DNA from: Thermohalobaculum xanthum
Lineage (GTDB): Bacteria; Pseudomonadota; Alphaproteobacteria; Rhodobacterales; Rhodobacteraceae
Assembly (NCBI RefSeq): GCF_016623495.1
Contig: NZ_JAEHHL010000001.1
Coordinates: forward strand, 806,001-870,000
Length of the DNA: 64,000 nt
Direction: 5' to 3'
The notes beneath the pieces were generated by a model. The model made no database searches. It was not told the DNA's origin and saw only the letters and a list, made by a program, of their open reading frames with translations. A program made the position numbers and the translations under genes. Shown here piece by piece: positions 7,679 through 36,317 of the stretch (position 1 is its first letter; every line of letters begins with the position of its first letter).

Positions 7679-8656
7679 TCAAATAAATCCAAGCATCTGC
7701 ATCAGCTGACCAATCTGCTTCTCTTGAACCAGAAGGAACGCCTTGAAGTCGTCGCCGGTCTTGAACAGTTCGACCCAGCCATAACGGCTTCGGATCGCCT
7801 CCCACTCCGGCGTGCCGAGCATCCGCTCGAGCGCGGACACATAGGCGTCACGCCGGTCGGCGGGCAGGCCGGGCGCGGCGAAGAACCCCCGCCAGTTGAT
7901 GAAGACCGCGTTGGCGCCGGCCTCGGCGCAGGTCGGGTGGTCGGGGTGATCGGGCAGCCGCGCCGGCGCGGTGACGCAGAGCAAGTTCACCTTGCCCGCG
8001 AGCGTCATCGCGGCGGCCTCGGAGAAGCCCGTCGAGAGGACGTCGACCTCGTTCCCGAGGAGGCCCGTCATCGCCTCGCCACCCGCATCGTAGGGCACGT
8101 AGCGCAGCTTGGTGGCATCGGAGCCGGCCTCGCGCAGGATCAGCGCGGCGACGAGGTGGTCCATGCCGCCTGCGACCGACCCGCCACCCATTGCAAGCGT
8201 CTGGGGGTCCGCGTCATAGGCGGCCTTGAAATCCGCGAAGCTCATGATCGGGCTGCCGGCACGCGTGACCAGCGCGGCATAGTCGCCGATGATGCTGGCG
8301 ACCGGCGTGAGGTCGCGGAAATCGTGAGGGAAGACGCCCTGCAGCGACCGGATGACGATGGGCGTCGAGTTCACCATCAGGATGTCGTCCCCGCCGGGGC
8401 CGGTCTCGACCAGGTGGGCGATCGCCTTGCCGCCGCCGCGGCCGGAAAGGTTTTCGTAGCTGGCCGAGCCGACGATGCCGGCGCTGGTCAGCGCCTCGCC
8501 CACCGCGCGCGCGGTGGTGTCCCACCCGCCCCCGTTGCCGCCGGGGATCAGGAAGTGAAGCCGGTCGAGATCCGCCGCGGCCGCTGCACCGGCAAAGGCG
8601 GTGATGATGATGGCGATGGCCCCTAATGCGCCGGGGAAGGCAGTCTTGAAACTCAT
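7679..8656 (-). CDS. Tripartite tricarboxylate transporter substrate-binding protein (TctC/Bug family)
   Basis: A 325-residue periplasmic binding protein: a signal peptide ending near AGAAAAADL, then the family core with HFLIPGGNGGGWDTTARAVG, ENLSGRGGGKAIAHL, and a C-terminal NWRGFFAAPGLPADRR typical of TctC. Such proteins capture organic acids (tricarboxylates and other carboxylates) for a TctAB membrane pair. No tctA or tctB gene is in this window, so it is an orphan here, as is frequent for Bug proteins. SD-like GAAGG precedes the ATG. Ligand unknown. Confidence 0.92.
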   Translation of the reverse strand: MSFKTAFPGALGAIAIIITAFAGAAAAADLDRLHFLIPGGNGGGWDTTARAVGEALTSAGIVGSASYENLSGRGGGKAIAHLVETGPGGDDILMVNSTPIVIRSLQGVFPHDFRDLTPVASIIGDYAALVTRAGSPIMSFADFKAAYDADPQTLAMGGGSVAGGMDHLVAALILREAGSDATKLRYVPYDAGGEAMTGLLGNEVDVLSTGFSEAAAMTLAGKVNLLCVTAPARLPDHPDHPTCAEAGANAVFINWRGFFAAPGLPADRRDAYVSALERMLGTPEWEAIRSRYGWVELFKTGDDFKAFLLVQEKQIGQLMQMLGFI

Positions 8657-8859
8657 GGCGCGCCTTCAAATCTGCGCGGCCGGTACTGGAAAAAGCGCTG
8701 CCGAGCGGGCGAACGCCCTCAACCAGCCGCCTGAGACTGCCCAGACTGCGGCAAGCGGCGCCTCACGGCAATCCCTCAGAAATCTCGGTGCGTGATGGGG
8801 AAAGGGTTTTCGCGGCGGATCGGGCGGCCGCCGCTGGGGCGTGGTCGGGATCCCCGCCC

Positions 8860-9672
8860 TCAGCGGACACGCCTGCGGTAAAGGCCGATGGAAAGCCCGA
8901 CCCCGAGGCTGACCACGAAGAGGACGCCGACGACCGAGAGACGGTCGAGCACGAAGCCGGTGCCGCCATCCTGGATCAGGGATGCGCGCTTGGGCGGCGG
9001 CACAGGTGCGTAGAGATAGGTCAGGCGGATGCCCTCGCGCGGGACGGTGACGCCGATCCGCGCCTGGCGGATCTGGCAGTTGTCCCACCCGTCCGACGGC
9101 GCGCAGAGCTGCGAGACCACGCCGCCGATGGTTGTGGCGCGGATCGTAAGCCTCACGGGATCGTCGTCGGAAAAGACTCGGGTCGACGGCGTGAATGAGA
9201 GCTGCATCGCCCGCCGCTCATCATGCGCGAAGGCGCAGGTTCCGATCGAGGCGCATCCCGCGCTGGCGCTGGGCACCACCTCGGCATGCAGAAAGCCGCC
9301 GTCGGAGCCGACAACGTCAACGCGCGTCGCCAGCCGGCCCTCGACATCGACCGGCCCCGGCGCCTCGTCCAGCGGGGCCCCGTCCCCGATCACGCCCGAG
9401 AAACCCTGTTCCAGGAACAGCTGCATGTCGACGCGGACCGTTTGCAGGGCGCCGAGCGAGGCATCGAAGGGTTTGAAATCGACGCGCCGCGAGATGGCGA
9501 GGTGGCGATCCTTCTGATCTTCCTCGCGAATCCTCCGGGCCGAGAGGTTGCGCACCTCGTCCTCGACCTCGAAGGCCGCGGTCTGGCTTACGGCGTATGG
9601 CTCGGCGAGCGCGCTCGTGGCGACAAGAGCGCTCGCGGTGACCGTAATGATGAAACTGTTCAAGCTGGGCAT
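8860..9672 (-). CDS. Exported hypothetical protein with a C-terminal membrane anchor
   Basis: 270 residues from the ATG at 9672, chosen because GGGGAGG stands 6 bases upstream; the frame extends further but without support. Seen: a signal peptide (SFIITVTASALVATSALA), a beta-rich central part with four Cys (CASIGTC, then CAPSDGWDNC), and one C-terminal helix (VVGVLFVVSLGVGLSIGLY) followed by RRRVR. The helix-plus-basic-tail layout resembles sorting tags such as PEP-CTERM types, but no PEP motif is present, so it is best read as a single-pass envelope protein facing the periplasm. It is divergent from the first OpgG/OpgD-like gene and may share its control region. I do not recognise a family. 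Confidence 0.7.
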   Translation of the reverse strand: MPSLNSFIITVTASALVATSALAEPYAVSQTAAFEVEDEVRNLSARRIREEDQKDRHLAISRRVDFKPFDASLGALQTVRVDMQLFLEQGFSGVIGDGAPLDEAPGPVDVEGRLATRVDVVGSDGGFLHAEVVPSASAGCASIGTCAFAHDERRAMQLSFTPSTRVFSDDDPVRLTIRATTIGGVVSQLCAPSDGWDNCQIRQARIGVTVPREGIRLTYLYAPVPPPKRASLIQDGGTGFVLDRLSVVGVLFVVSLGVGLSIGLYRRRVR

Positions 9673-9898
9673 CTTGTGCCTCCCCCGCCTTGCGGGTCGT
9701 CTCGCTCGATTGTCAGGATGCAAATATACCCGAGTCGGGTCTGTAAGAATGTTCACAAGGCCCCGAGCGACTGTGAGTACGGAGTGAGAACCGACCCGCG
9801 CCGTCGCTTGCGCCATGCTTCATTCTGCGCGCTTGCCATTGCGCGGCGATCAGGAGTGGGTAGCCTGTAATCACCTGCACATGACCCGGAGAGATCGA
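9673..9898. promoter_or_regulatory. Divergent control region before the first OpgG/OpgD-like gene
   Basis: About 225 bases between divergent genes, with a locally AT-richer patch around 9718-9760. It must hold both promoters, since each gene is the first of its unit, but I could not pick a confident -35/-10 pair. Confidence 0.4.
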
Positions 9899-11482
9899 GT
9901 GACGACTGTGCTCTCGCGTCGCGAGATGATCGGAGGCGGCCTCGCCGCCACCCTTGGGCTGACCATTGCCGGCGCTACCGGCGCGGCGCACGCAACGGCC
10001 GAGACGCTGCCCGTTCTCGGCCCGCCGACGGATTTCAGTTTCGACCGGCTGGTCGAGCTTGCCCGCCGCTCCGCGAGCGAGCCCTACCGCACGCCCGTGA
10101 TTGCCGTGCCCGAGCAGATCGACCTGATCGACTACGACGCGCATTGGCAGATCCGCTTCCGCGACGACGCCTCGCTGATGCCGGCCGGACCGTCGGCGCC
10201 GATCCAGCTGTTCCATCCGGGGCGGTATTTCCGCGAGCCAGTGCGCGTGCACCTGGTCGAGAACGGCGCCGCGCGAGAGATCCATTACCGGCGCGGCTTC
10301 TTCTCGATGCCCGATGACAGCCCGGCCCGGGACCTGCCCGAGGATGTGGGCTTCGCGGGCTTTCGCGTGATGCGGCCGGGGCTTGCGCCGGACTGGGTCT
10401 CGTTCCTCGGCGCCTCGTATTTCCGGACCGACGGGCCGATGGGCCAGTACGGCCTCTCGGCGCGCGGAATCGCGGTCAATACCGGCCTTGCCATGCCCGA
10501 GGAGTTCCCCCGCTTTAGCCATTTCTGGATCGGCCCGGCCGTGGACCCCGACGACACGGTGACCGCCTGGGCGCTGCTCGACGGGCCATCGGTGTCGGGC
10601 GCCTACCAGTTCGGGCTGCGCCGGGGCGGCGCGGGCGAGCCGCATGTGACCACCATCTCGGCGCGGCTGTTCATGCGCGGCACGGTCGAGCGCCTAGGGA
10701 TCGCGCCGCTGACCAGCATGTACTGGTTCTCGGAGCGCAGCCGGATCCTGGCGGACGAATGGCGCCCCGAGATCCACGACAGCGACGGGCTGGCGATCGA
10801 GACCGGCGCAGGCGAGCGGATCTGGCGCCCGCTTGGCAATCCCAACGTCGTGCGCACATCGAGCTTCTTCGACGAGAACCCGAAAGGCTTTGGCCTCATC
10901 CAGCGCGACCGGGCGTTCGAGAACTACCAGGACGACGGCGTCTTCTACAACCGGCGCCCCTCGGCCTGGATCGAGCCGCTGGGCCCCTGGGGCAAGGGCG
11001 CGGTACAGCTGATCGAGATTCCCACGGTGGACGAGACCTTCGACAACATCGTCGCCTACTGGACCCCGGAAGAGCAGCCGGCGCCGGGAGAGATGCTGGC
11101 CTTCGACTACCGCATCCACTGGGACGAGCGCGACCCGCCGTCGACGGTGGCGCGGGTGTTCTCGACCCGGCAAGGCCAGGGCGGAGCGCCCGGCCAGGAC
11201 ATCCCCGAGGGGATCGACAAGATGGTGATCGATTTCCAGGGCCAGGCCCTCAAGGGCCTGACCGTCGACAGCGGGGTAGAGCCGGTGATCGAGGCCGTCG
11301 GCGGAAGGATCCTGGGGCCAATCGGCTGCCGCCCGGTGGTCGGCACCGACAGGTGGCGGCTGAGCTTCGACTTCTCGGCCGACGGTCCCGAGCCGGTGCA
11401 ATTGCGCGCCTATCTGCGCCGTGGCGATGCCGCGCTGACCGAAACCTGGGTCGCACTGGCCACGACAGACCGCAAGGGATGA
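9899..11482 (+). CDS. OpgG/OpgD-family periplasmic glucan protein (paralogue 1)
   Basis: About 527 residues of the MdoG/OpgG family. A Tat-type leader (SRREMIGGGLAATLGL) is followed by the long beta-sandwich domain with FLGASYFRT, GLSARGIAV, FWI and SMYWFSERSR. The family acts in the periplasm on osmoregulated periplasmic glucans (OPG): OpgG is needed for backbone synthesis, and OpgD-type members include beta-1,2-glucanases (GH186). The motif HDSDGL is intact here (D294, D296), unlike the second paralogue, which has HDSAGL. Start: GTG at 9899 follows GGAGAG by 6 bases; an in-frame ATG at 9881 is the alternative. It overlaps the next gene by 4 bases (ATGA), so it heads a three-gene coupled unit with a hydrolase and a GH15 enzyme. 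More likely OpgD-like than OpgG-like. Confidence 0.88.
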   Translation: MTTVLSRREMIGGGLAATLGLTIAGATGAAHATAETLPVLGPPTDFSFDRLVELARRSASEPYRTPVIAVPEQIDLIDYDAHWQIRFRDDASLMPAGPSAPIQLFHPGRYFREPVRVHLVENGAAREIHYRRGFFSMPDDSPARDLPEDVGFAGFRVMRPGLAPDWVSFLGASYFRTDGPMGQYGLSARGIAVNTGLAMPEEFPRFSHFWIGPAVDPDDTVTAWALLDGPSVSGAYQFGLRRGGAGEPHVTTISARLFMRGTVERLGIAPLTSMYWFSERSRILADEWRPEIHDSDGLAIETGAGERIWRPLGNPNVVRTSSFFDENPKGFGLIQRDRAFENYQDDGVFYNRRPSAWIEPLGPWGKGAVQLIEIPTVDETFDNIVAYWTPEEQPAPGEMLAFDYRIHWDERDPPSTVARVFSTRQGQGGAPGQDIPEGIDKMVIDFQGQALKGLTVDSGVEPVIEAVGGRILGPIGCRPVVGTDRWRLSFDFSADGPEPVQLRAYLRRGDAALTETWVALATTDRKG

Positions 11483-12318
11483 GCGACGACGCAACGGGCG
11501 CGCCGCCCAAGCGATGGCCGCCCGGCCCCGCCGCGACAGTGCCCACCCGGGAGGCGCCCGTATCATCGCGGCATCAGCTGGCGGCCTGCGCGGCGCGCGG
11601 GGCAATGCCGGTCGAGGTGGTGCGCCCCGGCAGCACTCCCGCCGGGATCGCGATCGTCGCGCATGGCCGCAACGGCGCGCCCGGCCAGCCGCAAGTCGCG
11701 TGCATGACCGACGCGGCCCTGCGGCGCAGGCTGATTGTGGTCGCGCCGCAGCTGTCGAACTCGGCGGCCGGCGACGGGGCTGGCCGACCCGAGGATTTCA
11801 CGATCAACGGGCATGTCGCCGAGCTGCGCGCCGTCGTCGTCTGGACCCAAGCGTTGCCCGAGCTGACCGACCTGCCGGCGGCGCCGATCCTGATGGGGCA
11901 CAGCATGGGCGCCTATGCCGCACTACGCCTCGCCGCCGAGGACGCGGGCGGTCGGATCGGCGGCGTGGTCGCGGTTTCGCCCGTGGTGTCGGGCGCGTCG
12001 CTGATCGCGGCGCGGCGCAGGATGGGCGCGGCGGCGCTGCAAGCCCTGGCGTCGGAGGTGCCCGGCGCGCTGGAAACCTGGCTCGAGCACGACCTGCTGC
12101 CGATGGCGGCACGGATCACGGTTCCGGTTGCGGTGATGACGGGCGCCGCTGACGCGCTGACGCCGCCCGCGGATGCCGAGCGCCTGGCGCGTGCGCTGCC
12201 GAACGTCGTGGCGCTCGACATCCTGGCGAATGAGGAGCACTGCCCCTCGGGCGCCGTCTACGCGGCAAGCCTTGACCGCGCGCTGGACCGGATCCTGTCC
12301 GCGTGCCGCCAGCCATGA
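11479..12318 (+). CDS. Alpha/beta hydrolase
   Basis: 279 residues. Seen: the nucleophile elbow GHSMGAYAAL (G-x-S-x-G), an oxyanion region IVAHGRNGAPGQP, a likely acid in MTGAADALTPPADAE, and a late His in NEEHCPSG. No signal peptide is visible, so it is probably cytoplasmic. Overlaps of 4 bases (ATGA) at both ends couple it to the OpgD-like gene before it and the GH15 gene after it. Inference from context: it could remove ester substituents (succinyl or acetyl groups often decorate alphaproteobacterial OPGs), but the sequence alone supports only a serine hydrolase. Confidence 0.85.
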   Translation: MSDDATGAPPKRWPPGPAATVPTREAPVSSRHQLAACAARGAMPVEVVRPGSTPAGIAIVAHGRNGAPGQPQVACMTDAALRRRLIVVAPQLSNSAAGDGAGRPEDFTINGHVAELRAVVVWTQALPELTDLPAAPILMGHSMGAYAALRLAAEDAGGRIGGVVAVSPVVSGASLIAARRRMGAAALQALASEVPGALETWLEHDLLPMAARITVPVAVMTGAADALTPPADAERLARALPNVVALDILANEEHCPSGAVYAASLDRALDRILSACRQP

Positions 12319-13694
12319 CGGACATGGGCGCCGACGGCCTCGACGCATGGCTCGCGCGGCAGGAGCGCGTCTCGCGACAGGCCTTGCGCGCCTGCGTCTC
12401 GGCCGAGGGATTCCGGCACGAGCGTCCGGGGTTCGGGCAAGTGGTCGACGCGGCGCCGGGCAGCGTGCTTGCGTCGCGCCACAAAGCCCGGTGGGATCCC
12501 GAGCCGGACTATGCCTATCACTGGGTGCGCGACGCGGCGGTGGTGATGCGGCTTGCGCCGCTGCTGGCACAGGACGAGCCAGAAACCTGGCGCACGCGCG
12601 TGGAGGATTACATCGCGTTCAGCCTGCGCATGGCGACGCGGCCCAGCCCCGAGACGAACCCCCTACGGGCCACGACGCGGCCGGACTTCCAGCGGTTCCT
12701 GCGGCCCGATGCCGAGCTTGCCGCCCTGCGCGGCGAGAAGCTGCTGGGCGAGCCGCGCGCGAACATCGACGGGAGCGTGGATGTCGAGCGCTGGTCACGC
12801 CCCCAGCATGACGGCCCTGCCCTGCGCGCGCTGTCCTGCATGACCGCGATGGCGGCCGGGGCCGCCGGGACCGACGCGCTGCTGGCGCTCGACCTTGGCT
12901 ACACGCTCGGCCACGCCGCGGCAGCCTGCATCGGACCGTGGGAGGAGGAAGGCGAGCACGAACTGCACGCGTTCACACTGATGGCGCAGCGCGCAGCCTT
13001 GCGGATGGCGGTCGCACACGGGCGCCCGGAAGGCGCCCGCGCGGACGTGGCGCTCGCACACATCGAGGCGGCACTCGAGGGGCTCGTGGACGCGACCTCG
13101 GGCGTCCTTGGGGCGCGGGCGGGGGGGCGACCGGGCACGAGTGACGCGGCGGTGATCCTCGGGGCGCTGCTGACCGACCCCGAGGATGACAGGTTCGGAC
13201 CGACCGATCCGCGCGTTCTCGGCGCGGCTGCATGGCTGATCGACTGGTCGCGCCAGAGCTTTGCCATCAACCGCGACGGGGCGCCCGCGATCGGGCGCGG
13301 GCCGGATGACAGGTTCTTCGGCGGCAACCCCTGGGTGCCGACGACGCTGGGCATGGCCGAGCTTCATTTCGCACTGGCCGAGCGGTTCCTCGCCGGGCCA
13401 TCCGTGCCGGATGCAGCCGTCGCGAGCGCGCTCTTCCGGCGTGCGGCAGACGGCGGCCCGGCGGCGCCGTCCGGCGACAGCGGGGCGATGGCCCGATGGC
13501 TTGTCGCCGGCGGAGAGGCTTTTCTTGCCACGCTGCGCCGGCATGTCCCAGGCGACGGCCGGCTGCCCGAGCAGATCCACCGCGAGACGGGGGCGCCGGT
13601 TTCGTGCCCCGACCTGAGCTGGAGTCATGCCGCGCTGGTATCGGCCGCGCATGCGCGGCTTCGGGCGCGCGAGCGGCTGTGCGGCCAAGGGTGA
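12315..13694 (+). CDS. Glycoside hydrolase family 15 (glucoamylase-like)
   Basis: 459 residues forming the alpha/alpha-barrel of GH15. Typical segments: YAYHWVRDAAVVMRL, the conserved FGGNPWVPTTLGMAELHF, and DLSWSHAALVSAAHARL near the end. GH15 enzymes release glucose from the non-reducing end of alpha-glucans by inversion. It is about 150-200 residues shorter than many bacterial GH15 proteins because the N-terminal beta-sandwich is missing. There is no signal peptide, so it is likely cytoplasmic. The ATG at 12315 overlaps the stop of the hydrolase; a GTG at 12303 is an alternative. Its place in an otherwise beta-glucan locus is odd: either the activity differs from glucoamylase, or the operon also handles alpha-linked sugar. 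Confidence 0.87.
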   Translation: MTDMGADGLDAWLARQERVSRQALRACVSAEGFRHERPGFGQVVDAAPGSVLASRHKARWDPEPDYAYHWVRDAAVVMRLAPLLAQDEPETWRTRVEDYIAFSLRMATRPSPETNPLRATTRPDFQRFLRPDAELAALRGEKLLGEPRANIDGSVDVERWSRPQHDGPALRALSCMTAMAAGAAGTDALLALDLGYTLGHAAAACIGPWEEEGEHELHAFTLMAQRAALRMAVAHGRPEGARADVALAHIEAALEGLVDATSGVLGARAGGRPGTSDAAVILGALLTDPEDDRFGPTDPRVLGAAAWLIDWSRQSFAINRDGAPAIGRGPDDRFFGGNPWVPTTLGMAELHFALAERFLAGPSVPDAAVASALFRRAADGGPAAPSGDSGAMARWLVAGGEAFLATLRRHVPGDGRLPEQIHRETGAPVSCPDLSWSHAALVSAAHARLRARERLCGQG

Positions 13695-13703
13695 CGCCTG
13701 GCG

Positions 13704-14993
13704 CTAGACCGAAGGGGCGCCCCGAACGTCGGATTCGAGGCGCGGGCTTGTGAAGTCCAGCGACGCAAGGCCCGCCCGGACCTCGGGCACCGACATGAAG
13801 AGATCCCAGATCAGGCCGCTGCGGTGGTTCTCGATCATCACCACGATCGGGGCCTGATCGATGGCAAGGGTTGCGGGCGCCACCCAGCCGGTCGCGGGCG
13901 CGAAGGCGTCGGCAAGCCCGAACCGTCCCCAGAGCCGGTCGCCCCGGTCCTCGACGAAGTGCCTGAGCGCGCGCATCGAGGCCTCGGGCAGATAGGGCAT
14001 CGACGCGACCGCCGCGGTGGGCGTGATGACCCCGAGATCCACGGTCGGCGAGTGGGCGGCATAGCCGCCGGGGCTGTCGCTCGCCGTCAGGCCCCAGCAG
14101 TCGGGGCCGTAGCCGACATGGCCGTTGGGGTTCGCAATGCAGTGTGCGCGGTTGATGGCGGCATGCGCGCAGACCTGCTCGCCGTAATCGGCATAGCGGT
14201 CGGTCAGACCGTTCGGATCGAGCCCGAGGAACGAGTAGTGCGAGAGGAACATCGGCCCGCCGCCATCGGGCCCGAGCGGCAGGCGGATGCCGTGATATGA
14301 CCTGCCGTTCAGGAACTGCTCACCGCGCGCCCAGCAGTCGTGATAGGCCGATGCGGGGATCGGATGCGTGGGCGAGGCGGTAGCCAGCACATAGGTGATC
14401 AGGCACTCGTTCCAGCCCCGGATGGGCAGGCTGCGCGCGCTCCAGGGATGGCGCTCGGAGCGGTGCCACATCAGGGCGCCGTCCGAGGGCCGCAGATGCG
14501 CGGACCACTCGACCCCGTGCCAGAGGCGGTCGATGCCGGTACGAAGCCGCGCGTCCTCGGCGAAAGCCTGCCGCGCGGCGAGAAGACCCGCGATGAGGAA
14601 CGAGGTCTCGACAAGATCGCCGCCATCGTCGAGCGGGCTGAACGGGATGATGGTGCCCAGCGTACCGTCGAGGAAATGCGGGAAGACGCCCCGCTCGCGC
14701 TCGGCCGCGAGCAGGAAATCGACCATGCGCGACAGGTGCCGCCGGACCTCGTCGCGGTCGAGCCAGCCGCGCGAGACCCCCGCAAGCAGTGCCATGACGC
14801 CAAAGCCCGTGCCACCGGTGGTGACGGTCTCATCGGTGTCGTAGCCGAAGCTGCCGCCGCTGCGCTCGCGCGCCATGCCGCTGACCGGGTGGGCGAAGGA
14901 CCAGAAGTAGTCGAGCGCCGCGCGGCTGACGGCGTCGAGCAGCGCGGCGTCGTCGAGGCCGGAAGCGGGGCGGCCGGTGTTCAGTCGTTCCAT
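13704..14993 (-). CDS. Glucoamylase-like (GH144-type) family protein, probable beta-1,2-glucanase
   Basis: 429 residues of the Glycoamylase fold (alpha/alpha barrel) used by GH144 endo-beta-1,2-glucanases. Seen: N-terminal ALDYFWSFAHPVSGMARER, TTGGTGFGVMALL, ETSFLIAGLLAARQ, and C-terminal LAIDQAPIVVMIENHRSGLIWDLFM, all family hallmarks. No signal peptide is evident. It overlaps the end of the GH3 gene by 13 bases, so the two are translationally coupled. GH144 acting with a GH3 beta-glucosidase gives full depolymerisation of beta-1,2-glucan to glucose; this is the known logic of such pairs. The specific activity is inferred from family and from the OPG neighbours. Confidence 0.88.
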   Translation of the reverse strand: MERLNTGRPASGLDDAALLDAVSRAALDYFWSFAHPVSGMARERSGGSFGYDTDETVTTGGTGFGVMALLAGVSRGWLDRDEVRRHLSRMVDFLLAAERERGVFPHFLDGTLGTIIPFSPLDDGGDLVETSFLIAGLLAARQAFAEDARLRTGIDRLWHGVEWSAHLRPSDGALMWHRSERHPWSARSLPIRGWNECLITYVLATASPTHPIPASAYHDCWARGEQFLNGRSYHGIRLPLGPDGGGPMFLSHYSFLGLDPNGLTDRYADYGEQVCAHAAINRAHCIANPNGHVGYGPDCWGLTASDSPGGYAAHSPTVDLGVITPTAAVASMPYLPEASMRALRHFVEDRGDRLWGRFGLADAFAPATGWVAPATLAIDQAPIVVMIENHRSGLIWDLFMSVPEVRAGLASLDFTSPRLESDVRGAPSV

Positions 14994-17245
14994 GTGATCT
15001 CGATGCTGGTGAGGTCTCGCGAGTTCGGGCCGAGGCGCAGGATGAAGCTGCCCGGGTCCCAGACCCGGCTCAGGCCCTCGACGCTGTCGCCCACCAGATA
15101 GGTGAGGTCGTCGCGGGCGAGCGTGAACCGCACCTCGCGCGCCTCGCCCGGATCGAGGGTGACCCGCTCGAACCCCTTGAGTTCCTGCGAGGGCCTCACG
15201 ATGCGGGCAACGGGGTCCGAGACGTAAAGCTGCACGACCTCCGTGCCGCGTCGGTCGCCCGCGTTCCGGATGGTCACGGCGACGGTGACCCGTGCATCCG
15301 GCCCGCCGGGCGACGCAGGCGTGACGCGGGGCTCGCCCCACTCGAAGCGCGTGTAGCCAAGGCCGAAACCGAAGGGATAAAGCCCTCTGGCCGGCGGGAT
15401 TTCGCCGGGAAGATCGAGATAGCCGGTGCGGAACTTCTGGAACTGCCCCGTCCAGGGGCGGCCCGTGGTCTCGGCGCCGTGGTGGATTGGCACCTGCCCC
15501 GAGCACGCCGGAAGCGACACGGCAAGCCGCCCGCCGGGCTCGGCCCGGCCGGTCAGCACGTCGGCGATACCATGCCCCGCCTCGGTGCCGCCGAACCAGG
15601 CAAGAAGCAGCGCGTCGGCGAGGCGCGACTCGCGGGCGAGGACCAGCGAACGGCCGGCCATGACCACCAGCGCGATTGGCTTGCCCGCCTGCGCCAGCGC
15701 CTCGAGCAGGCGGCGCTGCGGCGCGGGGATGTCGAGCTCGGTGCGGCTCGAGCTCTCGCCCGAATGCTCCTTGGCTTCGCCCGCGACAAGCACGACGACA
15801 TCGGCCCGGGCTGCGAGCGCGAGCGCCTCGGCGATGAGCTCGGCCTCGGGGCGCGGATCGGGCAGAACCGTCGGGCCAAACACGTCGAGACGCGCGGCGA
15901 TGTCCGCATCGTCCACGATATTCGCGCCCTTGGCATGATCGACGGGACCGTCATGGACGGCGCGCAACCCCTCGAGGATGGTGACGGCCTGCCCCGGATC
16001 GCCCGACACGGCCCAGGTGCCCAGCATGTTGGCGCGATCGTCGCCAAGCCGGCCGATCAGCGCGACGCGCGATCCGGGCTTGAGCGGCAGGACCCCCTCG
16101 TTCCTGAGCAGAACGCAGGAGGCCGCGACGGCGCGGCGGGCAAGGTCGCGATGAGGGGCCGCGAGGGCGGCGCCCTTCGCCCGTGCCTCGTCGCAGTAGC
16201 GGTAGGGGTCTTCGAAAAGGCCAAGCCGCTGCTTCAGTGAAAGCACCCGGCGGCAGGACCGGTCGATCGCCGCAATGATCGCGGGGGCCGCCAGGTCAAG
16301 CGCCGCTTCGGGCCGCGAAAGGCCCGCCTCGGCAAGTTCGGGGAGGCAGGCGAGGTAATCCTCGCCGATCATGTCCATGTCGACCCCGGCCAGCAGGGCG
16401 CGCGCCGCAACCGTCGCGCGATCGCCCAAGCCATGGGCGATGAGTTCGTGCACGCCCGTGTAATCCGCGACCACGAGGCCGTCGAAGCCGCAAACGCCAC
16501 GGAGCCATCCCTCGATCAGCCCGCGATGCGCGTGCATGGGGCACCCGTTCACGGCGTTGAACGCGGCCATCACGCTTGCCGCGCCCGCGGCAACGCCGGC
16601 GCGAAAGGGCTCGGCATAGACGCCGATCAGCTCGGCCGGGGCGAGGCTTGCATTGTCGTAATCGCGCCCGCCCGCCGCCGCGCCATAGGCGAGGAAGTGC
16701 TTGAGGCAGGCCGCGACCGTGTCGAGCGCGGTCAGGTCATCGCCCTGCAGGCCGCCGACCATCGCCTCGGCGTAGCGCGCCGCGAGGAACGGATCCTCGC
16801 CCGGGCTTTCGGCAATCCGCCCCCAGCGCGCGTCGCGCGCGATATCGAGCATCGGGGCGTAGACCTGGTTGATCCCCTCGGCCGCGGCCTCGGTCGCCGC
16901 CACCCGCGCGGTGGCGCGGACCAGCGCCATGTCCCATGAGCAGACCAGCGCCACCGGCAGCGGGAAGATGGTGCGATGGCCGTGGATGACATCCTCGGCA
17001 AAGAGCAGCGGGATGCCGTGGCGCGAGCCCTCGACCGCGATCTCCTGCCAGGCGCGCACCGAGCGCACGGATTTCGTGCCGAAGATCGCGCCGAGCTGGC
17101 CCGCCTCGAGCCGGGCGCGGATGTCGCGGCTGTGGGCGCTCCCGGTCTCGGGGCCCTCGCCCGCGCTGAGCAGGTTGAGCTGGCCGATCTTCTCGGCAAG
17201 CGTCATGCGTTGCAGGAGTTCGTCGATGTTCGGGGGGCGTCTCAA
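14981..17245 (-). CDS. Glycoside hydrolase family 3, BglX-type beta-glucosidase
   Basis: 754 residues with the full three-domain layout: TIM barrel (RMTLAEKIGQLNLL at the start; LKHFLAYGAAAGGRDY; nucleophile Asp in LVVADYTGVHE), the alpha/beta sandwich (VVLVAGEAKEHSGESSSR carries the usual acid/base Glu) and a fibronectin III-like C-terminus (RRGTEVVQLYVSD, ELKGFERVTLDPGEAREV). There is no signal peptide, whereas E. coli BglX is periplasmic, so this copy seems cytoplasmic. The start is a TTG without a clear ribosome site; the first safe landmark is RMTLAEK about 14 residues in. It lies 51 bases after the ABC transporter gene and overlaps the GH144 gene, suggesting import and hydrolysis of beta-gluco-oligosaccharides in one operon. 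Confidence 0.92.
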   Translation of the reverse strand: MRRPPNIDELLQRMTLAEKIGQLNLLSAGEGPETGSAHSRDIRARLEAGQLGAIFGTKSVRSVRAWQEIAVEGSRHGIPLLFAEDVIHGHRTIFPLPVALVCSWDMALVRATARVAATEAAAEGINQVYAPMLDIARDARWGRIAESPGEDPFLAARYAEAMVGGLQGDDLTALDTVAACLKHFLAYGAAAGGRDYDNASLAPAELIGVYAEPFRAGVAAGAASVMAAFNAVNGCPMHAHRGLIEGWLRGVCGFDGLVVADYTGVHELIAHGLGDRATVAARALLAGVDMDMIGEDYLACLPELAEAGLSRPEAALDLAAPAIIAAIDRSCRRVLSLKQRLGLFEDPYRYCDEARAKGAALAAPHRDLARRAVAASCVLLRNEGVLPLKPGSRVALIGRLGDDRANMLGTWAVSGDPGQAVTILEGLRAVHDGPVDHAKGANIVDDADIAARLDVFGPTVLPDPRPEAELIAEALALAARADVVVLVAGEAKEHSGESSSRTELDIPAPQRRLLEALAQAGKPIALVVMAGRSLVLARESRLADALLLAWFGGTEAGHGIADVLTGRAEPGGRLAVSLPACSGQVPIHHGAETTGRPWTGQFQKFRTGYLDLPGEIPPARGLYPFGFGLGYTRFEWGEPRVTPASPGGPDARVTVAVTIRNAGDRRGTEVVQLYVSDPVARIVRPSQELKGFERVTLDPGEAREVRFTLARDDLTYLVGDSVEGLSRVWDPGSFILRLGPNSRDLTSIEITWND

Positions 17246-17296
17246 TTATTCGACCGTGCTGCCAGACGTGCCGCGCCGGCGCGCCTTTCGGGCGGA

Positions 17297-19537
17297 TCAC
17301 TCTGCCGCGATCGCCCGACGCTCGGCCAGCGCGGAGCCTACCGGAAGCAGCATCGCTTCGCCATCCGCAATGAGCAGGATCTGGTTGTAGAAGGGCGTGC
17401 CCTTGGGATCGCGGGGGATCTCGGCGTCGTGCATGATGCTGAGCACCACCGCGTTGGGGCAATGCTCGCGCAACAGCAGGTGGAACTCGCGCACCGAATC
17501 CGGATCGAGGGCCGAGGTCGCCTCGTCGAGCAGCAGGATCTCGGGTCGCTGGAGCAGGATGCGCGCCAGCACCAGGCGCTGACGCTGGCCGCCGCTGAGG
17601 ACACTTTCCCAGGGGCGGCCGTTATGCAGCGCCGCATCCATTTCGCGGATGAACTTGCCAAGGCCGACATCGGCCAGCACCGCCGCCACGTCGCGCTCGG
17701 CATAGACCTCGTCGTAGCGCGGGTAGCAAACCAGTTCGCGCAGGGTCAGCCGCTCGGGCAGGTCCGGGTCCTGCCCCGCGAAGAAGCAGTGCATGCCCTC
17801 GCCGAACGCGATCTCGCCCGAACCATAGGGCCAAAGCCCGGTGATCGCCTTCATCAGGCTGCTCTTGCCGCAGCCGTTCTCGCCGCGGACATAGACCCAG
17901 GCGCCGGGCCGGAACACGAGGCCGCGGGCACGCAGGAACGGCTGGGCATCGTGGCCGCGGTGGCGCAGCTCGACCTGGCGGACGGCCAGCCCAAAGGCGC
18001 GGTCCTGCGTCTCGAACCGGAAGTCGGAAACGCCGGTGCGGGTGTAGAACTCGGAGCGGTCCTGCGCGTCCTCGATAGCTACGGCGAGCTCGTTCAACCG
18101 GCGCGCATTGGCCTTGAGCGTCGCGAGGGCCGGCATCACCTGGATGAACCACGAGGTATCGTTGATGAATTGCGCCACCAGTTCCGAGGTCGCAGAATAA
18201 CGCCGGAAGCTCATTGCCCCCTCGAGGAAGGCGGGCAGCGCCGGCAGATAGGCGACGAGGCGGCTGGCGATGAAGTTGTAAGCGTCGGTGAAGACCATGA
18301 AGTTGAGCCGCGTGATGTTCACGCGGTGCCACACGCTGTCGACCGCCGAGTAAAGGCGGGTGTTGACGCGGGCCTGCACGCGCTCGCCATGCGAGGTCGC
18401 CATCTGGCCCGAACGCGCCAGCATGGCGTTGAACTCGCCGCGCCACGACCCCCCGGTCGCCTGCTGCGCAAGCGTCTGGCGCTCGAGCACCCGGCCGATA
18501 CGCCAGGCGAAGACGAGGCCGGCCGGCACGTAGATGCAGACCAGCAGCAGAACCAGGAGCGCGCTGCCATATTCGCCGGGCGAGAAGTCGAACCACGCGC
18601 CGACGGACGGGCCGAAACGGTCTGACATGAACCCCGAGAACGCCCGCGCGCCGCGTTCGAGGAACGCGACCTCGGTCGAGCGCTCGATCACCGCGACCGA
18701 GATGAAGTAGATCGAGGCGACCGCGCCCCAGACCCCCATCGCGAGCCCGACGAGGCCCGCATAGACGTTCATCGTGCATTCATCGACACGCTGGTCGATG
18801 TTGTCGGGCAACCGGGCGCCAGCGGCGGTGTCGCGGTCGCTCATCAGGCTGGCGGCGACGTGGTTCTGGGCGAGGATCGCCTTCGAGAACTGCTCCTGTG
18901 TCCAGCCGCGCGCCTTGCGGTGCAGCGTGCTCGAGCACAGGTGCCGAATGCCCACGACGCCGATCCGGCCAAGATGCACCGCCGCGAAGACCGCCGCCGC
19001 GGTGATCAGGTAGGACACCGGATCGATGTCGTCCTCGGGCCGGTGGAAGCGCACGAGGGAATTGAGGAAATCCGCGCTCGAGGTCGCCGCCCAGACGCTG
19101 CTCTTGCTGATCAGGGTCGTCAGGCCGAACATGCCGATGGTGAGCGTCCAGGCCTCGACCCAGCGGTCTGAGAACCAGTAGGCCGTCAGCAGGCCCCAGA
19201 AGCCACGCATGCGCGAGGTGGCCGTTCGCCCGGGCGCGACGAGAGGGCGCCGCGCGAGCGATAGAAGCGGGACACGACCAAGCAGATGTACCGCGCTCCA
19301 CGGCCCGATCGAAAGGATGACAGCAAGGGTGATCGCGAAAACGTCAAAGGTAATGGTGCAAGCAACGGCGAGTGTTTCCCGCATTTCGGGAGGCGCGTTG
19401 GCTAATACAACCGGAAACGACGCGATCAGCGCAGAAATCCCTAAGATCCACGCTGCCTTTAAATTGAAATGGGGGGCGGTTATCCGCAGCAGCGGCCCCC
19501 ATCGACGCACACGAAGCTCCAACCTATTCAGAACCAT
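17297..19537 (-). CDS. ABC transporter, fused permease and ATPase (SbmA/BacA-like family)
   Basis: About 746 residues. The N-terminal half holds several membrane helices of the ABC_membrane_2 type (as in SbmA, BacA and YddA), including WILGISALIASFPVVLA and LLVLLLVCIYVPAGLVFAW. The C-terminal half is an ATPase: Walker A GENGCGKSSLMKAITG, signature LSGGQRQRLVLARI, Walker B ILLLDEATSALD. The N-terminal membrane part has about 150-200 more residues than YddA. Known relatives move peptides, cobalamin or fatty-acyl compounds. Next to GH3, GH144 and opg genes, a role in moving glucan oligosaccharides is a reasonable guess, but peptide transport cannot be excluded. The ATG at 19537 was preferred to a TTG at 19579; neither has a strong ribosome site. 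Confidence 0.87.
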   Translation of the reverse strand: MVLNRLELRVRRWGPLLRITAPHFNLKAAWILGISALIASFPVVLANAPPEMRETLAVACTITFDVFAITLAVILSIGPWSAVHLLGRVPLLSLARRPLVAPGRTATSRMRGFWGLLTAYWFSDRWVEAWTLTIGMFGLTTLISKSSVWAATSSADFLNSLVRFHRPEDDIDPVSYLITAAAVFAAVHLGRIGVVGIRHLCSSTLHRKARGWTQEQFSKAILAQNHVAASLMSDRDTAAGARLPDNIDQRVDECTMNVYAGLVGLAMGVWGAVASIYFISVAVIERSTEVAFLERGARAFSGFMSDRFGPSVGAWFDFSPGEYGSALLVLLLVCIYVPAGLVFAWRIGRVLERQTLAQQATGGSWRGEFNAMLARSGQMATSHGERVQARVNTRLYSAVDSVWHRVNITRLNFMVFTDAYNFIASRLVAYLPALPAFLEGAMSFRRYSATSELVAQFINDTSWFIQVMPALATLKANARRLNELAVAIEDAQDRSEFYTRTGVSDFRFETQDRAFGLAVRQVELRHRGHDAQPFLRARGLVFRPGAWVYVRGENGCGKSSLMKAITGLWPYGSGEIAFGEGMHCFFAGQDPDLPERLTLRELVCYPRYDEVYAERDVAAVLADVGLGKFIREMDAALHNGRPWESVLSGGQRQRLVLARILLQRPEILLLDEATSALDPDSVREFHLLLREHCPNAVVLSIMHDAEIPRDPKGTPFYNQILLIADGEAMLLPVGSALAERRAIAAE

Positions 19538-19579
19538 CCACCGCCCAGGAACAGTCTCTACAAACTCCAACTGACCCAA

Positions 19580-19866
19580 AATGTGTCACCAATTGCGGCA
19601 AACTTGCGACCAAGACGAAATGTGGGGTTGCTCAGGGCAACAATGCCCAAATATGTTTTGTTGCCGTTGCTTCCGCGCCACGCTCGCGCTGCGTATTGAT
19701 GGGCGCAGCAAAGCCTATTATTTAGCGGCGCGTTCGCGCACGGGCCGCGGGGTGCCTGCCGGGTGGCAGGCGTGAGCGGCTCTAACACCCGGTTTCCCAA
19801 GCATAAAGGCAAGGGCCCGGACGCGTCGTTGCTCGTCGTGCTGCACCGTTCTCCTGAGGATCACCG
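19580..19866. promoter_or_regulatory. Divergent control region between the ABC transporter and opgG
   Basis: AT-richer than its surroundings. It holds a perfect inverted repeat GGCAACAA (19636-19643) / TTGTTGCC (19658-19665), 14 bases apart, a plausible dimer operator serving both the transporter-GH3-GH144 unit and opgGH. Nearer opgG lies a tight hairpin GCCTGCC-GGGT-GGCAGGC (19754-19771) that would form in the opgG leader. No -35/-10 pair stood out. Confidence 0.45.
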
Positions 19867-21522
19867 ATGCCCGGTTCGGAAAATGGCTCGGAACTGCTGG
19901 CTGCCCTGGCCGCCGTTGGGCTGCGCCTGACGCGGCGTGAGTTCATCGCGGGCGCAGGCGCGGGCGTCTTGGGCACGGGCGTTCTGGGCGCCACGACCGG
20001 AAAGGCGCTGGCCCAGGAGGCCGGCGACGGGTCGAGTGCCGCCCCTGCTGAGCCGGAGCCGGCACCCCCGATCTTCGGCTTCGCGGATGTCGCCGAGATC
20101 GCCCGCACTCGCGCCGAGAAGGAATACTCGGCGCCGTCGATGACGCTGCGCGGGCCCTTTGCGAACCTCGAATACGACCAGTACCGGGCGATCCGCTTCC
20201 GGCCCGAGGCACGCCCGCTTGCAGGATCGGGCAGCGCCTTCGCCATCGACCTGCTGCCGCCGGGGTCGGTCTACCGCCAGCGGGTCGCCATCTCGATCGT
20301 CCGGGCCACGGGGATCGAGGATCTCGGCTTCTCGTCCGACCTGTTCGAGTTCGATCCGGCCATCTTCCCCTTCCCAGACGGGATCGCCCCGAGCGGATCG
20401 GGCGAGGGCATGGATTTCTCGGGCTTTCGCCTGCGCAGCCCGATCAACAGCCCCGACGTCCTTGACGAGTTCCTGGTGTTCCAGGGGGCGAGCTATTTCC
20501 GCGGCATCGCGCGCAGCATGATCTTCGGGCTCTCGGCGCGCGGCCTCGCGATCGGCACTGCTGATCCCCGCGGCGAGGAATTTCCCGTCTTCCGCCATTT
20601 CTGGATCCGCGAACCGGAACCCGACGCGCGCGACATCGTTGTACATGCGCTGCTCGACAGCGCGTCGGCCACGGGCGCATTCGAGTTCGAGATCCGCCCG
20701 GGCGAGTCCACGGTGATGCAAACGCGCTGCCGGCTGTTTCCTCGCACTGAAATCGACCAGATCGGAATCGCACCGCTGACCTCGATGTATTATTTCGGCC
20801 CCGCGCGCCGGCGCGGCATCGACGATTTCCGCGACGCGGTGCACGACAGCGCCGGGTTGCAGATGATCACCGGCCAGGGCACGCGCCTGTGGCGGCCGCT
20901 GACGAACCCGGATCGCGTCGAGATTTCGGCTTTCGTCGACGAGAATCCCAAGGGTTTCGGCCTGACGCAGCGCCCCCTCGACTTCGGCTTTTATCAGGAC
21001 GCCGAAGCGCGCTATGATCGGCGCCCGAGCGGATGGGTGGAACCCTTGGGCGGATGGGGGCCCGGTACCGTCATGCTCGTCGAGATCCCGGTGGAGAACG
21101 AATTCAACGACAACATCGTCGCCTTCTGGCGTCCGCGCGACCCGTTGAAGCCGTCACCGGAGGGACATGACTTTTCCTACCGGCTCCACTGGTGCGCTGC
21201 CCCGCCCGACGCCGCGCCGCTGGCCCGGGTGAAAGCGACGCGCGGCGGCCGCTCGATCCACAATGCGGCGATGCGCGACTTCGCAGTGGATTTCGTGACG
21301 GCGCCCGACAGCAACCCGGCGCTGCGGGGCACGTTGACCGCCAGCACCGGCAAGGTCTCGCCGGTCACGCTGACGCCCCTGCCCGGAGGCCAGCTGATCC
21401 GCGCCGCCTTTACCTTTGAGCCCGGCGACGCCGAAGCCGCCGAACTGCAGCTTGCGCTCGAGGACGAGGCCGGGCTGCGGCAATCGGAAACCTGGCTCTA
21501 CAGATGGACCGCAGAACGATGA
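19867..21522 (+). CDS. opgG: Glucan biosynthesis protein OpgG/MdoG family (paralogue 2)
   Basis: 551 residues. Tat leader TRREFIAGAGAGVLGTG, then the full MdoG domain (GFADVAEIA, FQGASYFRGIARS, FGLSARGLAIGT, SMYYFGPARRRG, FVDENPKGFGL). OpgG is a periplasmic protein needed to build or branch the OPG backbone made by OpgH. TGAGGATC precedes the ATG by about 7 bases. The stop overlaps the opgH start (ATGA), giving the classical opgGH pair. Difference from paralogue 1: the conserved HDS-D-GL motif reads HDSAGL here (A329), so any hydrolase activity depending on that Asp would be lost. This supports assigning the synthetic OpgG role to this copy. Confidence 0.93.
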   Translation: MPGSENGSELLAALAAVGLRLTRREFIAGAGAGVLGTGVLGATTGKALAQEAGDGSSAAPAEPEPAPPIFGFADVAEIARTRAEKEYSAPSMTLRGPFANLEYDQYRAIRFRPEARPLAGSGSAFAIDLLPPGSVYRQRVAISIVRATGIEDLGFSSDLFEFDPAIFPFPDGIAPSGSGEGMDFSGFRLRSPINSPDVLDEFLVFQGASYFRGIARSMIFGLSARGLAIGTADPRGEEFPVFRHFWIREPEPDARDIVVHALLDSASATGAFEFEIRPGESTVMQTRCRLFPRTEIDQIGIAPLTSMYYFGPARRRGIDDFRDAVHDSAGLQMITGQGTRLWRPLTNPDRVEISAFVDENPKGFGLTQRPLDFGFYQDAEARYDRRPSGWVEPLGGWGPGTVMLVEIPVENEFNDNIVAFWRPRDPLKPSPEGHDFSYRLHWCAAPPDAAPLARVKATRGGRSIHNAAMRDFAVDFVTAPDSNPALRGTLTASTGKVSPVTLTPLPGGQLIRAAFTFEPGDAEAAELQLALEDEAGLRQSETWLYRWTAER

Positions 21523-23708
21523 CCTCCGCGAGCCAGGGCGAAAACCGCCCGGTCGTCTTCAACGACACCGAGGGAGCGCAGATCCGCAAGCCCGACTTCC
21601 TGCACGCGCCCACGCCGCCATCGGCGCCGCTCGAGATGCCGACGCAGGACCTGGCGCGCGGGCCGATCGTGGCCTTCCCGCCCTCGAGCCTCGGGACCGC
21701 CTTCGCGCGGCTGATCGCCTTTGGCGGGGCAGCGGTGCTGACGGCATATGGCTTCAACGAGATGCTGCTGGTCTTCGGCAAGGAGACCCGCACATTCCTG
21801 CAGCTGGTGCTGCTGGGGCTCTTCACCATCACTTTCGGCTGGATCGCCCTGTCGGCGACGCAGACGATTGCCGGCCTGCTTTGCGCGCCGGGACGACCTG
21901 ACGTGCCGCGCGACGGGCCGCTCAAGGGGCGGACCGCGATCCTGATGCCGGTCTACAACGAGAGCCCCGCATCGACCTGCGGTGCCCTGGCCGCGATGGG
22001 CGAAGCGCAGGCGGACAGCGGTCACGGCACTTCCTTCGAGATCTTCATCCTTTCGGACACCCGCGACCCCGACGTGTGGCTCGCCGAGACCGCGGCCTTC
22101 GCCGAGCTGCGCCACCGGCTGGCGGGGCGGATTGCCGTCTGGTACCGGCGTCGGTGGCAGAACACCGGCAAGAAGGCGGGGAACCTGCACGACTTCATGG
22201 TCGGCTGGGGTGCACGCTACGACTACATGCTGGTGCTGGACGCCGACAGCCTGATGGACGCGCCCACGATCATCGAGATGGTCCGGCGCATGGACGCTGC
22301 GCCACGGCTGGGGATCCTTCAGACCGTGCCCATCCTGGCCGGCGGCTCGACCCTGTTCGCGCGGCTCCAGCAGTTCGCCGGGCGCATCTACGGCCCCGTC
22401 ATCGCGCGCGGCGTCGCCGCGTGGCAGGGGATGGACGGCAACTACTGGGGCCACAACGCCCTGATCCGGGTGCGCGCCTTCGCCGAGAACTGCGGCCTGC
22501 CTGAACTGCCGGGGCGCAAGCCCTTCGGCGGCCACATCCTGAGCCATGATTTCGTCGAGGCATCCCTGATCCGGCGCGGCGGCTGGGAGGTCCGGATGGA
22601 CCCCGACCTCGAGGGCAGTTGGGAGGGATCGCCGCCCTCGCTCCTGGACCTCTCGACCCGGGACCGGCGCTGGGCGCAGGGCAACCTGCAGCACTCGAAG
22701 ATCGTCGGCGCCCACCGGCTGAGGCTGCCGAACCGGATCCACATGCTGATCGGCATCGGTGCCTACCTCATGTCCACCATCTGGCTGGCCATGCTGCTGG
22801 TCGGCATGGTGCTGACCGCCCAGACCCTGCTGATCAGGCCCGAGTACTTCCCCGACGGCCTGCAGCTATTCCCCGACTGGCCGGTGTTCGATGCCGAGCG
22901 GATGCGCCGTCTCTTCATGCTGGCAATGACACTTCTGCTGCTGCCGAAGGCGGTGGGCCTGTGCCGCGCTCTGCTGCTGCGCCGGGTGCGGAGCAAGACC
23001 GGCGGCGCGTTCCGGCTGATTGCCAGCGCGGTCTTCGAGGTGGTGCTGAGCGCGCTCTATGCGCCGGTCCTGATGCTCCTGCAGGCGCGGCACGTGACCG
23101 ACATCCTGCTCGGCCGCGACTCGGGCTGGGGGCGCCAGCAGCGCGAGGGAGCCGAGCTTTCGTGGCCCGAGGCGTTAGCCCACCACTGGACCAGCGTCGT
23201 CGCGGGCCTGACCGTGGGCGCGGCGTTCGCATGGTTCGCGCCGAACCAGGTGATCTGGATCACGCCCGTTCTGGCGGGCCTGATCCTCGCCCCCGCATTG
23301 TCCCGCTGGAGCAGCGCGCGGAGTGCCGCCTCGTGGGTGGAGCGCGCCGGCCTGCTGACCACGCCCGAGGAGACGTCGAAGCCCGCGCTGATGCAAACGG
23401 CGCACGACCTCGAGGAAGAGTTCGAGGCGCTCGCCAGCCCCTCGCTCGAGGCTCTGGCGGACGATCGGGCCGCGCTGGCGGCGCATCTGCGGGCCCTCGG
23501 GCCGGAGCCCGACTGGACCGAGTCGCAGACCATCCTGCGCGTCACCCTGAGGGCAAAGATTGAGGCGGCAGCGTCGCCCGCGCAGGCGGTTCGCTGGCTC
23601 AGCCCCGCCGAGCGGGATGTGCTGGTCGGCTCGGCGGACCTGCTGCGGCTGTGGGGCGCGCGCTGGGACGAGCCTGCCCCAAGCTCCAGGGGCGCACTGG
23701 GCATGTAA
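21519..23708 (+). CDS. opgH: Glucans biosynthesis glucosyltransferase MdoH/OpgH
   Basis: About 729 residues of inner-membrane GT2 polymerase. Two N-terminal helices (around FARLIAFGGAAVLTAYG and LVLLGLFTITFGWIAL) precede the cytoplasmic catalytic domain with IFILSDTRDPD, LDADSLM (DxD), ILSHDFVEASL (catalytic Asp) and DRRWAQGNLQH (the R/QxxRW motif). Several C-terminal helices follow. OpgH polymerises UDP-glucose into the linear beta-1,2-glucan backbone and helps export it. E. coli OpgH is longer (about 847 residues); the shortfall is mainly at the N-terminus. The start is chosen at 21519 (ATGA overlap with opgG); an ATG at 21504 is also in frame. No opgC succinyltransferase gene is in the window. 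Confidence 0.94.
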   Translation: MTSASQGENRPVVFNDTEGAQIRKPDFLHAPTPPSAPLEMPTQDLARGPIVAFPPSSLGTAFARLIAFGGAAVLTAYGFNEMLLVFGKETRTFLQLVLLGLFTITFGWIALSATQTIAGLLCAPGRPDVPRDGPLKGRTAILMPVYNESPASTCGALAAMGEAQADSGHGTSFEIFILSDTRDPDVWLAETAAFAELRHRLAGRIAVWYRRRWQNTGKKAGNLHDFMVGWGARYDYMLVLDADSLMDAPTIIEMVRRMDAAPRLGILQTVPILAGGSTLFARLQQFAGRIYGPVIARGVAAWQGMDGNYWGHNALIRVRAFAENCGLPELPGRKPFGGHILSHDFVEASLIRRGGWEVRMDPDLEGSWEGSPPSLLDLSTRDRRWAQGNLQHSKIVGAHRLRLPNRIHMLIGIGAYLMSTIWLAMLLVGMVLTAQTLLIRPEYFPDGLQLFPDWPVFDAERMRRLFMLAMTLLLLPKAVGLCRALLLRRVRSKTGGAFRLIASAVFEVVLSALYAPVLMLLQARHVTDILLGRDSGWGRQQREGAELSWPEALAHHWTSVVAGLTVGAAFAWFAPNQVIWITPVLAGLILAPALSRWSSARSAASWVERAGLLTTPEETSKPALMQTAHDLEEEFEALASPSLEALADDRAALAAHLRALGPEPDWTESQTILRVTLRAKIEAAASPAQAVRWLSPAERDVLVGSADLLRLWGARWDEPAPSSRGALGM

Positions 23709-26199: not shown

Positions 26200-26390
26200 C
26201 CGCGCCTTGATCGCCCCCGATCGGGTTCGAGGATAGACGCAGATGCGGCCGTCGCCTCGCGATCGGTCGAGTCAGGCGCCCGCAGATCTTGTGCCCGCGA
26301 CACGACGTTAAGCGGCTCCCGAGGCGCCAGAAAAGAAAAGGCGCCCCCGGCGGACCGAGAGCGCCACAAGCATCAGCTGAGGGTCGCGGC

Positions 26391-36207: not shown

Positions 36208-36229
36208 TCACCACATCAACGAAAACGCT

Positions 36230-36260: not shown

Positions 36261-36317
36261 GCATTCAGCAGAGACACACCTCTCGCGAGAGCGTCCTCGG
36301 AGAGCGGCGAGCCTTTC

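Follow-up and report, generated by a model that had tools for sequence, protein, structure and literature searches.

A stretch of 64,000 nt from Thermohalobaculum xanthum (contig NZ_JAEHHL010000001.1, positions 806,001 to 870,000), referred to here as the window, contains a locus in which genes for an osmoregulated periplasmic glucan adjoin genes for a transporter and several glycoside hydrolases (GH). An original prediction, made from the sequence alone, described eight genes in three units and proposed that one locus both builds the glucan and takes it apart. Eight intact open frames do span positions 9908 to 23708, with the content, order, strands, ATGA coupling, and GH3/GH144 overlap that had been described. 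Families were assigned by matches to Pfam, NCBIfam, and sequences in the Protein Data Bank (PDB). Two details needed revision. The first gene had been placed from 9899; its frame opens at 9815 and the likely start is 9908. The transporter had been called a fused ABC (ATP-binding cassette) transporter; it is an ABC protein, namely a half-transporter combining a membrane part and an ATPase, of the YddA/Rv1819c kind. The features of the locus are the following:

9908..11482, plus strand: GH186 protein no. 1, OpgD-like (Pfam MdoG, 585 bits; twin-arginine-type N-terminus)
11479..12318, plus strand: alpha/beta hydrolase, putatively de-esterifying (Pfam Hydrolase_4, 39 bits; without obvious signal peptide)
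12315..13694, plus strand: GH15 protein of the exo-alpha-glucosidase type (Pfam GH15, 91 bits; without obvious signal peptide; alternative GTG start at 12303)
13704..14993, minus strand: GH144 protein of the beta-1,2-glucanase type (Pfam Glycoamylase/GH144, 240 bits; without signal-like N-terminus)
14981..17245, minus strand: GH3 beta-glucosidase of the BglX/Lin1840 kind (Pfam GH3, 196+152+70 bits; TTG start; without signal-like N-terminus)
17297..19579, minus strand: ABC half-transporter (membrane domain and ATPase), YddA/Rv1819c-like (Pfam ABC_tran, 74 bits; alternative ATG start at 19537)
19580..19866, no strand: divergent intergenic region between the degradation and synthesis arms (defined by position)
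19867..21522, plus strand: GH186 protein no. 2, OpgG-like (Pfam MdoG, 558 bits; twin-arginine-type N-terminus)
21519..23708, plus strand: OpgH glucosyltransferase, glucan synthase (NCBIfam MdoH; Pfam GT2 domains; most likely start 21519)

The first plus-strand unit (GH186, hydrolase, GH15) is joined by ATGA overlaps at 11479 and 12315. On the minus strand, the ABC gene is followed by those for GH3 and GH144, the latter starting with an ATG at 14993 and sharing 13 bases with the end of the GH3 gene. In the second plus-strand unit the GH186 gene is coupled to opgH through ATGA at 21519, the arrangement of an opgGH-type operon. A divergent pair of ABC and GH186 genes also exists in a genome of the same genus, G002, and in locus L020; no clear motif emerged when the divergent intergenic region was compared with its counterpart in G002.

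The OpgH protein reached 757.7 bits with the NCBIfam MdoH model NF003958 (cut-off 419) and 816 bits with NF003956 (cut-off 864). Best PDB match of the first GH186 protein was XccOpgD (8x18, 416 bits), with 343 bits for EcOpgG and 337 for EcOpgD, and that of the second was EcOpgG (1txk, 313.5 bits). Further MdoG genes were not found in the genome at the search threshold. The general acid and base of the family (EcOpgD D388 and D300) are retained in all 48 aligned sequences, a set in which the two window proteins and a pair of anchors from E. coli are included and from which two short fragments were left out. At the positions of XccOpgD W76 (or Tyr), D343, and R477, the protein encoded at 9908 has Y, D, and R, and its loop A is short and devoid of a GW motif. 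These features are given as markers of alpha-1,6-cyclising GH186 enzymes (clade 3) in the available part of PMC11228985. Among D343-type proteins, R477 is common to the 9908 protein and its same-genus relative only. The 9908 protein may cyclise the glucan by a single alpha-1,6 bond. In another genome, G254, the opgH match (C81:53-1846) has one in-frame TGA.

For the GH144 protein, matches were obtained to PDB entries 4gl3 (E 1.5e-138) and 5gzh, an endo-beta-1,2-glucanase (E 8.1e-129). The equivalents of CpSGL E211, F268, and Y330, clan-defining residues with roles described in the available part of PMC12102758, are invariant in nine out of nine aligned GH144 proteins. Of 27 GH3 proteins aligned, the window protein included, 26 have the arginine of subsite +1 (Lin1840 R572, JMB19063 R587), and the only one without it is a second GH3 copy in L048, 8-9 kb away. 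Closest among solved structures to the window GH3 is JMB19063 (3u48), then 5xxl, presumably a Bacteroides enzyme. According to the accessible part of PMC4757417, this arginine favours sophorose in Lin1840. The GH144 and GH3 proteins keep residues linked to beta-1,2-glucan, which would fit this polymer as their substrate.

The ABC protein is closest to Rv1819c both by sequence (6tqe, E 1.1e-26 across residues 346-753) and by fold (E 5.9e-22, TM-scores 0.48/0.54), and E. coli YddA aligns to it with 22% identity over 567 columns (E 5e-38). Apart from a weak match to ABC_membrane_2, none of the other Pfam ABC membrane families was matched by the window protein. An identity as exporter of the Cgt/NdvA type was considered and rejected, since the ABC_membrane_2 match is weak and both fold and sequence indicate Rv1819c. 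The YddA family is described as being of unknown function, and Rv1819c, a cobalamin transporter, as its nearest structural relative, in the part of PMC13316013 available; a title cited there (Rempel 2020) states that the Rv1819c-type transporter mediates uptake of hydrophilic compounds.

To place the locus in a wider context, named genomes were scanned for GH144, and of the 388 stretches confirmed, the best 80 were used. Twenty-three of these loci are alphaproteobacterial (one titled only Proteobacteria) and served as relatives; the remaining 57, nearly all Bacteroidota by title (L037 and L077 carry other titles), served as control. A scan of 295 genomes of the same family gave 11 matches to the GH144 anchor, eight of them true GH144 proteins (window genome included) and two of them long proteins of the Cgs type; the remaining match, on a 3.7 kb contig (G032, 30% identity), is divergent and was excluded from the synteny counts. 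The 23 alphaproteobacterial loci, seven same-family genomes, and the same-genus genome G002 (locus L156) make up the set of 31 to which the following counts refer.

An uninterrupted run of ABC, GH3, and GH144 genes, in this order, was observed for 21 of the 31 genomes. MdoG and OpgH are encoded in 25 of them, including all 21 with the contiguous module. Joint occurrence by chance in one genome, which the original prediction had allowed for, is therefore not what was found: the grouping is not a chance one. Clustering of the genes in the window and in these 31 loci, with a floor of four loci per cluster, gave clusters for ABC, GH3, GH144, GH15, hydrolase, GH186, and OpgH; the others were generic ABC ATPases (five loci), short-chain dehydrogenases (four), and one set of frames antisense to GH144. 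In L035 (Tropicimonas), the genes follow one another as ABC, GH3, GH144, GH15, hydrolase, GH186, OpgH, and OpgC. Of the 31 loci, 15 contain GH15 and 19 contain the hydrolase. The unit of GH186, hydrolase, and GH15 proposed originally is correct in its gene order, and by synteny the hydrolase and GH15 go with the degradation arm; the synthesis arm consists of the two GH186 proteins and OpgH. In G210 (L021), two different YddA/SbmA-like ABC proteins (8528-10345 and 2759-4876) flank GH3-GH144. A direct search with the ABC protein in 61 genomes gave a match in two, which is weak evidence of absence from the others as at most 17 candidates were scored per genome.

The link to glucan synthesis was also apparent within the family. 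MdoG was detected in 135 of the 295 genomes, yet in eight out of eight with true GH144 (p = 0.0017; 7/7 and p = 0.0037 minus the window genome, 8/9 and p = 0.009 plus the divergent G032), where it should be kept in mind that the genomes are related, so that these and the p-values below overstate independence. Within the genus, the window genome and G002 have both GH144 and MdoG, and G001, G003, and G004 have neither (G003 is 85% complete); the flanking genes in these three genomes did not reveal a clean empty site. In nine of the 25 genomes having both, the flank examined around GH144 (10 kb at most) contains a GH186 gene.

Thirty of the 31 genomes possess either OpgH (25) or a Cgs-type protein (five) and therefore probably make a beta-1,2-glucan themselves. 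This bears on whose glucan is degraded. The ABC protein and the hydrolases could serve to feed on beta-1,2-glucans of other bacteria and stand near opgGH through shared glucan chemistry. In favour of this, GH144 and GH3 of the control loci have signal-like N-termini; a TonB-dependent receptor is found near one module locus (L028), and in L029, a metagenome bin of 2.5 Mb, GH3-GH144 is present and MdoG, OpgH, and Cgs were not found. Scavenging is considered unlikely all the same, given the probable own glucan in nearly all genomes and the finding that neither an outer-membrane receptor nor a solute-binding protein recurs among the clusters of at least four loci. The comparative evidence, synteny as well as co-occurrence with MdoG and OpgH, supports the proposal that one locus builds and dismantles the glucan, and it appears probable that the locus both makes beta-1,2-glucan and salvages the periplasmic glucan of the cell itself.

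The distribution of the transporter is indicative of its role. A YddA/SbmA-type ABC gene adjoins GH144 in 24 of 25 OpgH genomes, counting a copy in pieces in L023, the exception being L025. Each of the five rhizobial genomes without OpgH encodes a Cgs-type protein (about 2,860 to 2,900 residues), a member of a family that makes cyclic glucan in the cytoplasm. An intact ABC gene stands beside GH144 in none of these five, as against 24/25 (p = 4e-5), and the examined flanks of their 11 GH144 loci contain no intact ABC, GH3, GH15, hydrolase, or GH186 gene. Presence with OpgH and the lack of an intact copy with Cgs are predicted if an importer is needed only for glucan outside the inner membrane.

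Where digestion takes place was assessed by a simple rule for signal-like N-termini, which looks for a hydrophobic segment downstream of a basic residue close to a potential start and was applied at three thresholds. None of 32 alphaproteobacterial GH144 proteins was positive at any threshold, compared to 53 of 57 controls at the loosest. For GH3 the count was one of 26 (L023, probably spurious), compared to 31 of 31 controls at the loosest threshold. The rule is a rough one, detecting nine of ten GH186 proteins at the loosest but one of ten, and 24 of 31 control GH3 proteins, at the strictest threshold. Signal-like N-termini were assigned to one of 15 GH15 proteins at the loosest and none at the strictest threshold, and to nine and one, respectively, of 19 hydrolases, the location of which is less sure. 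Digestion by GH144 and GH3 is thus probably cytoplasmic and not a trimming in the periplasm, a departure from the original prediction. If these enzymes act in the cytoplasm, periplasmic glucan must be imported to reach them, which fits the re-import that had been suggested. GH144 proteins devoid of signal-like N-termini, with no intact ABC or GH3 gene adjoining, were also observed in the rhizobial Cgs loci L049, L083, L088, L099, and L100, which suggests turnover of cyclic glucan in the cytoplasm there, too.

A probable cytoplasmic location would also be compatible with a clean-up function, in which the enzymes destroy stray or aborted OpgH chains at the inner face of the membrane, with the ABC protein exporting or moving a different compound. 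The rhizobial GH144 loci just mentioned could be understood in the same way. This explanation leaves the YddA/Rv1819c-type gene beside GH144 in 24 of 25 OpgH genomes unaccounted for, and the closest solved relative of the transporter is, by the title quoted above from PMC13316013, one that takes up hydrophilic compounds. A clean-up role is accordingly regarded as quite improbable, somewhat more so than scavenging.

The hydrolase and GH15 could complete the degradation arm. The Ser-Asp-His triad is present in 12 out of 12 hydrolases aligned (20 found). The succinyltransferase gene opgC occurs in all 20 genomes with the hydrolase and in eight of 12 without it (p = 0.014, 32 genomes); within the 26 OpgH genomes the values are 20/20 and 3/6 (p = 0.008). 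This association fits removal of succinyl groups, for which it provides modest support. The presumed glucoamylase active site of GH15 (two catalytic glutamates and the residues of subsite -1) shows no variation among the 11 sequences aligned (16 found), and the AlphaFold model (pLDDT 88.6) has glucoamylase 3eqa as first Foldseek hit. GH15 may serve to clear an alpha-1,6 link, a proposal that is attractive on chemical grounds only and forms the weakest step. Confinement of GH15 to genomes with a cyclase of the XccOpgD type was considered as well and is unsupported by residue D343 across 26 genomes.

The starch-type glucoamylases found as nearest folds of GH15, and its failure to follow the cyclase marker, would be expected if GH15 and GH3 acted on another polymer, glycogen for example, and GH144 alone were concerned with beta-1,2-glucan. 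The module GH15 is the only GH15 of the genome in ten of the 16 genomes carrying it, and the ten OpgH genomes without GH15 in the locus have none elsewhere either. Together with the arginine found at subsite +1 of all but one of the 27 GH3 proteins, this makes action on another polymer very improbable, the least probable of the explanations discussed.

Several observations weigh against salvage of the own glucan by import and cytoplasmic digestion, in addition to the relatedness of the genomes, the roughness of the signal rule, and the bin L029 with its GH3-GH144 pair. Linkage to synthesis is not universal, as GH186 lies outside the examined GH144 flank in 16 of 25 genomes. The locus L025 (Acuticoccus) consists of GH144-GH15-hydrolase-GH186, with neither ABC nor GH3. 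In L023, the ABC gene beside GH144 (L023:2626-5844) is in pieces, split over several frames, which reflects either a broken gene or an assembly error. Regarding the transporter itself, the ABC_membrane_2 match of 21.4 bits is below the Pfam cut-off of 24.4, and the structure model is middling (pLDDT 74.9, pTM 0.58). The separation between OpgH and Cgs genomes is also imperfect. Two OpgH genomes (G338 and G267) show a Cgs-type match as well, and L083 (Mesorhizobium kowhaii), which has Cgs and no OpgH, keeps an ABC remnant of about 57 residues (353-613), an ATPase piece at most 50% identical to a module ABC and about 2.7 kb before GH144. The remnant looks like a lost transporter, so that the split holds for intact genes and perhaps arose by loss. 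Finally, D343-type GH186 proteins are found in nine of 16 genomes with GH15 and in seven of ten without it (p = 0.68).

Taken together, the following sequence of events is proposed. OpgH would extrude the glucan chain to the periplasmic side, and there the pair of exported GH186 proteins, judged by their family, would shape it. For removal of the glucan, the YddA/Rv1819c-type transporter would import it or its fragments. In the cytoplasm, the alpha/beta hydrolase may strip ester groups such as succinyl, GH144 would cut the beta-1,2 chain or ring, and GH3 would take glucose off the chain ends. GH15 could remove alpha-linked glucose that blocks GH3; the simplest case would be the alpha-1,6 bond closing the ring. 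This full scheme, import of the own glucan by a YddA-family protein and return of glucose by esterase, GH144, GH3, and GH15 with the alpha-1,6 bond cleared by the latter, is put forward tentatively, with a likelihood judged slightly short of even.

Comparison with G002 also gave information on the surroundings. DNA similarity starts at 9888, near the edge of the first GH186 gene, and the upstream genes at 7679-8656 (TctC-like) and 8860-9816 do not adjoin the island in G002. The latter is divergent from the first GH186 gene and specifies a predicted exported protein of 318 aa with a C-terminal hydrophobic stretch, for which no family match was obtained in Pfam or NCBIfam. Downstream, the window has about 13 kb extra (25843-39168); in G002, the match to 25842 is followed by about 170 bases and then by the match to 39168. 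The extra stretch, which has a lower G+C content after 28 kb, encodes a DUF5801 protein of 2013 aa and a protein of 750 aa with cadherin-like, RTX, and serralysin C-terminal domains.

Parts of the locus resemble known systems. With E. coli opgGH and Rhodobacter sphaeroides opgGIHC it shares the coupling of opgG to opgH, the GH186 proteins, and an opgC gene in the genome. In the E. coli record, no degradation genes adjoin opgC, opgG, and opgH, and the opgGIHC operon is named, in a title cited in the available part of PMC10514313, for synthesis and succinylation genes; the window locus adds an import and degradation arm. Bacteroidota GH144/GH3 loci and the SGL/SOGP clusters of Listeria are alike in that GH144, a Lin1840-type GH3, or both are clustered. 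In Listeria, GH3 is paired with a phosphorylase (PMC4757417), and SGL clusters can include an ABC system with binding protein (PMC11842490), as far as the accessible parts of these sources show. The control GH144/GH3 loci differ by their signal-like N-termini and by the lack of a GH186 or OpgH match. In Caulobacter, the glucan metabolic enzymes EstG and BglX act in the periplasm. They are reminiscent of the window proteins in that one is an esterase, the other a GH3-type enzyme judging by its name, and both have a genetic link to OpgH, but no GH144, GH15, or ABC importer is named with them in the available part of PMC11389396. In fold and sequence the ABC protein is like the YddA family and Rv1819c, neither of which is tied to glucan in the part of PMC13316013 available. 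With Cgt/NdvA it would share devotion to beta-1,2-glucan; these proteins are exporters for Cgs-made glucan (PMC10514313, available part), and the window protein matches ABC_membrane_2 only weakly.

The enzyme families are known, but their combination and the role suggested for the transporter are not described in the literature searched. This literature, mostly open-access, contained no description of opgH, GH144, and a transporter in one locus and no paper treating YddA, an ABC transporter, and glucan together. In the text available from these sources, the making and shaping of periplasmic glucans are covered, and their removal, for example on a rise in salt, is left untreated. If the proposal is true, the YddA-type family of unknown function would gain a physiological substrate, and cells could lower their periplasmic glucan actively, beyond dilution. 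The conserved import-and-digest module would then represent a testable route of removal, with a likely substrate for YddA-type transporters and with GH144, GH3, and GH15 enzymes that share one glucan as substrate in the cytoplasm.

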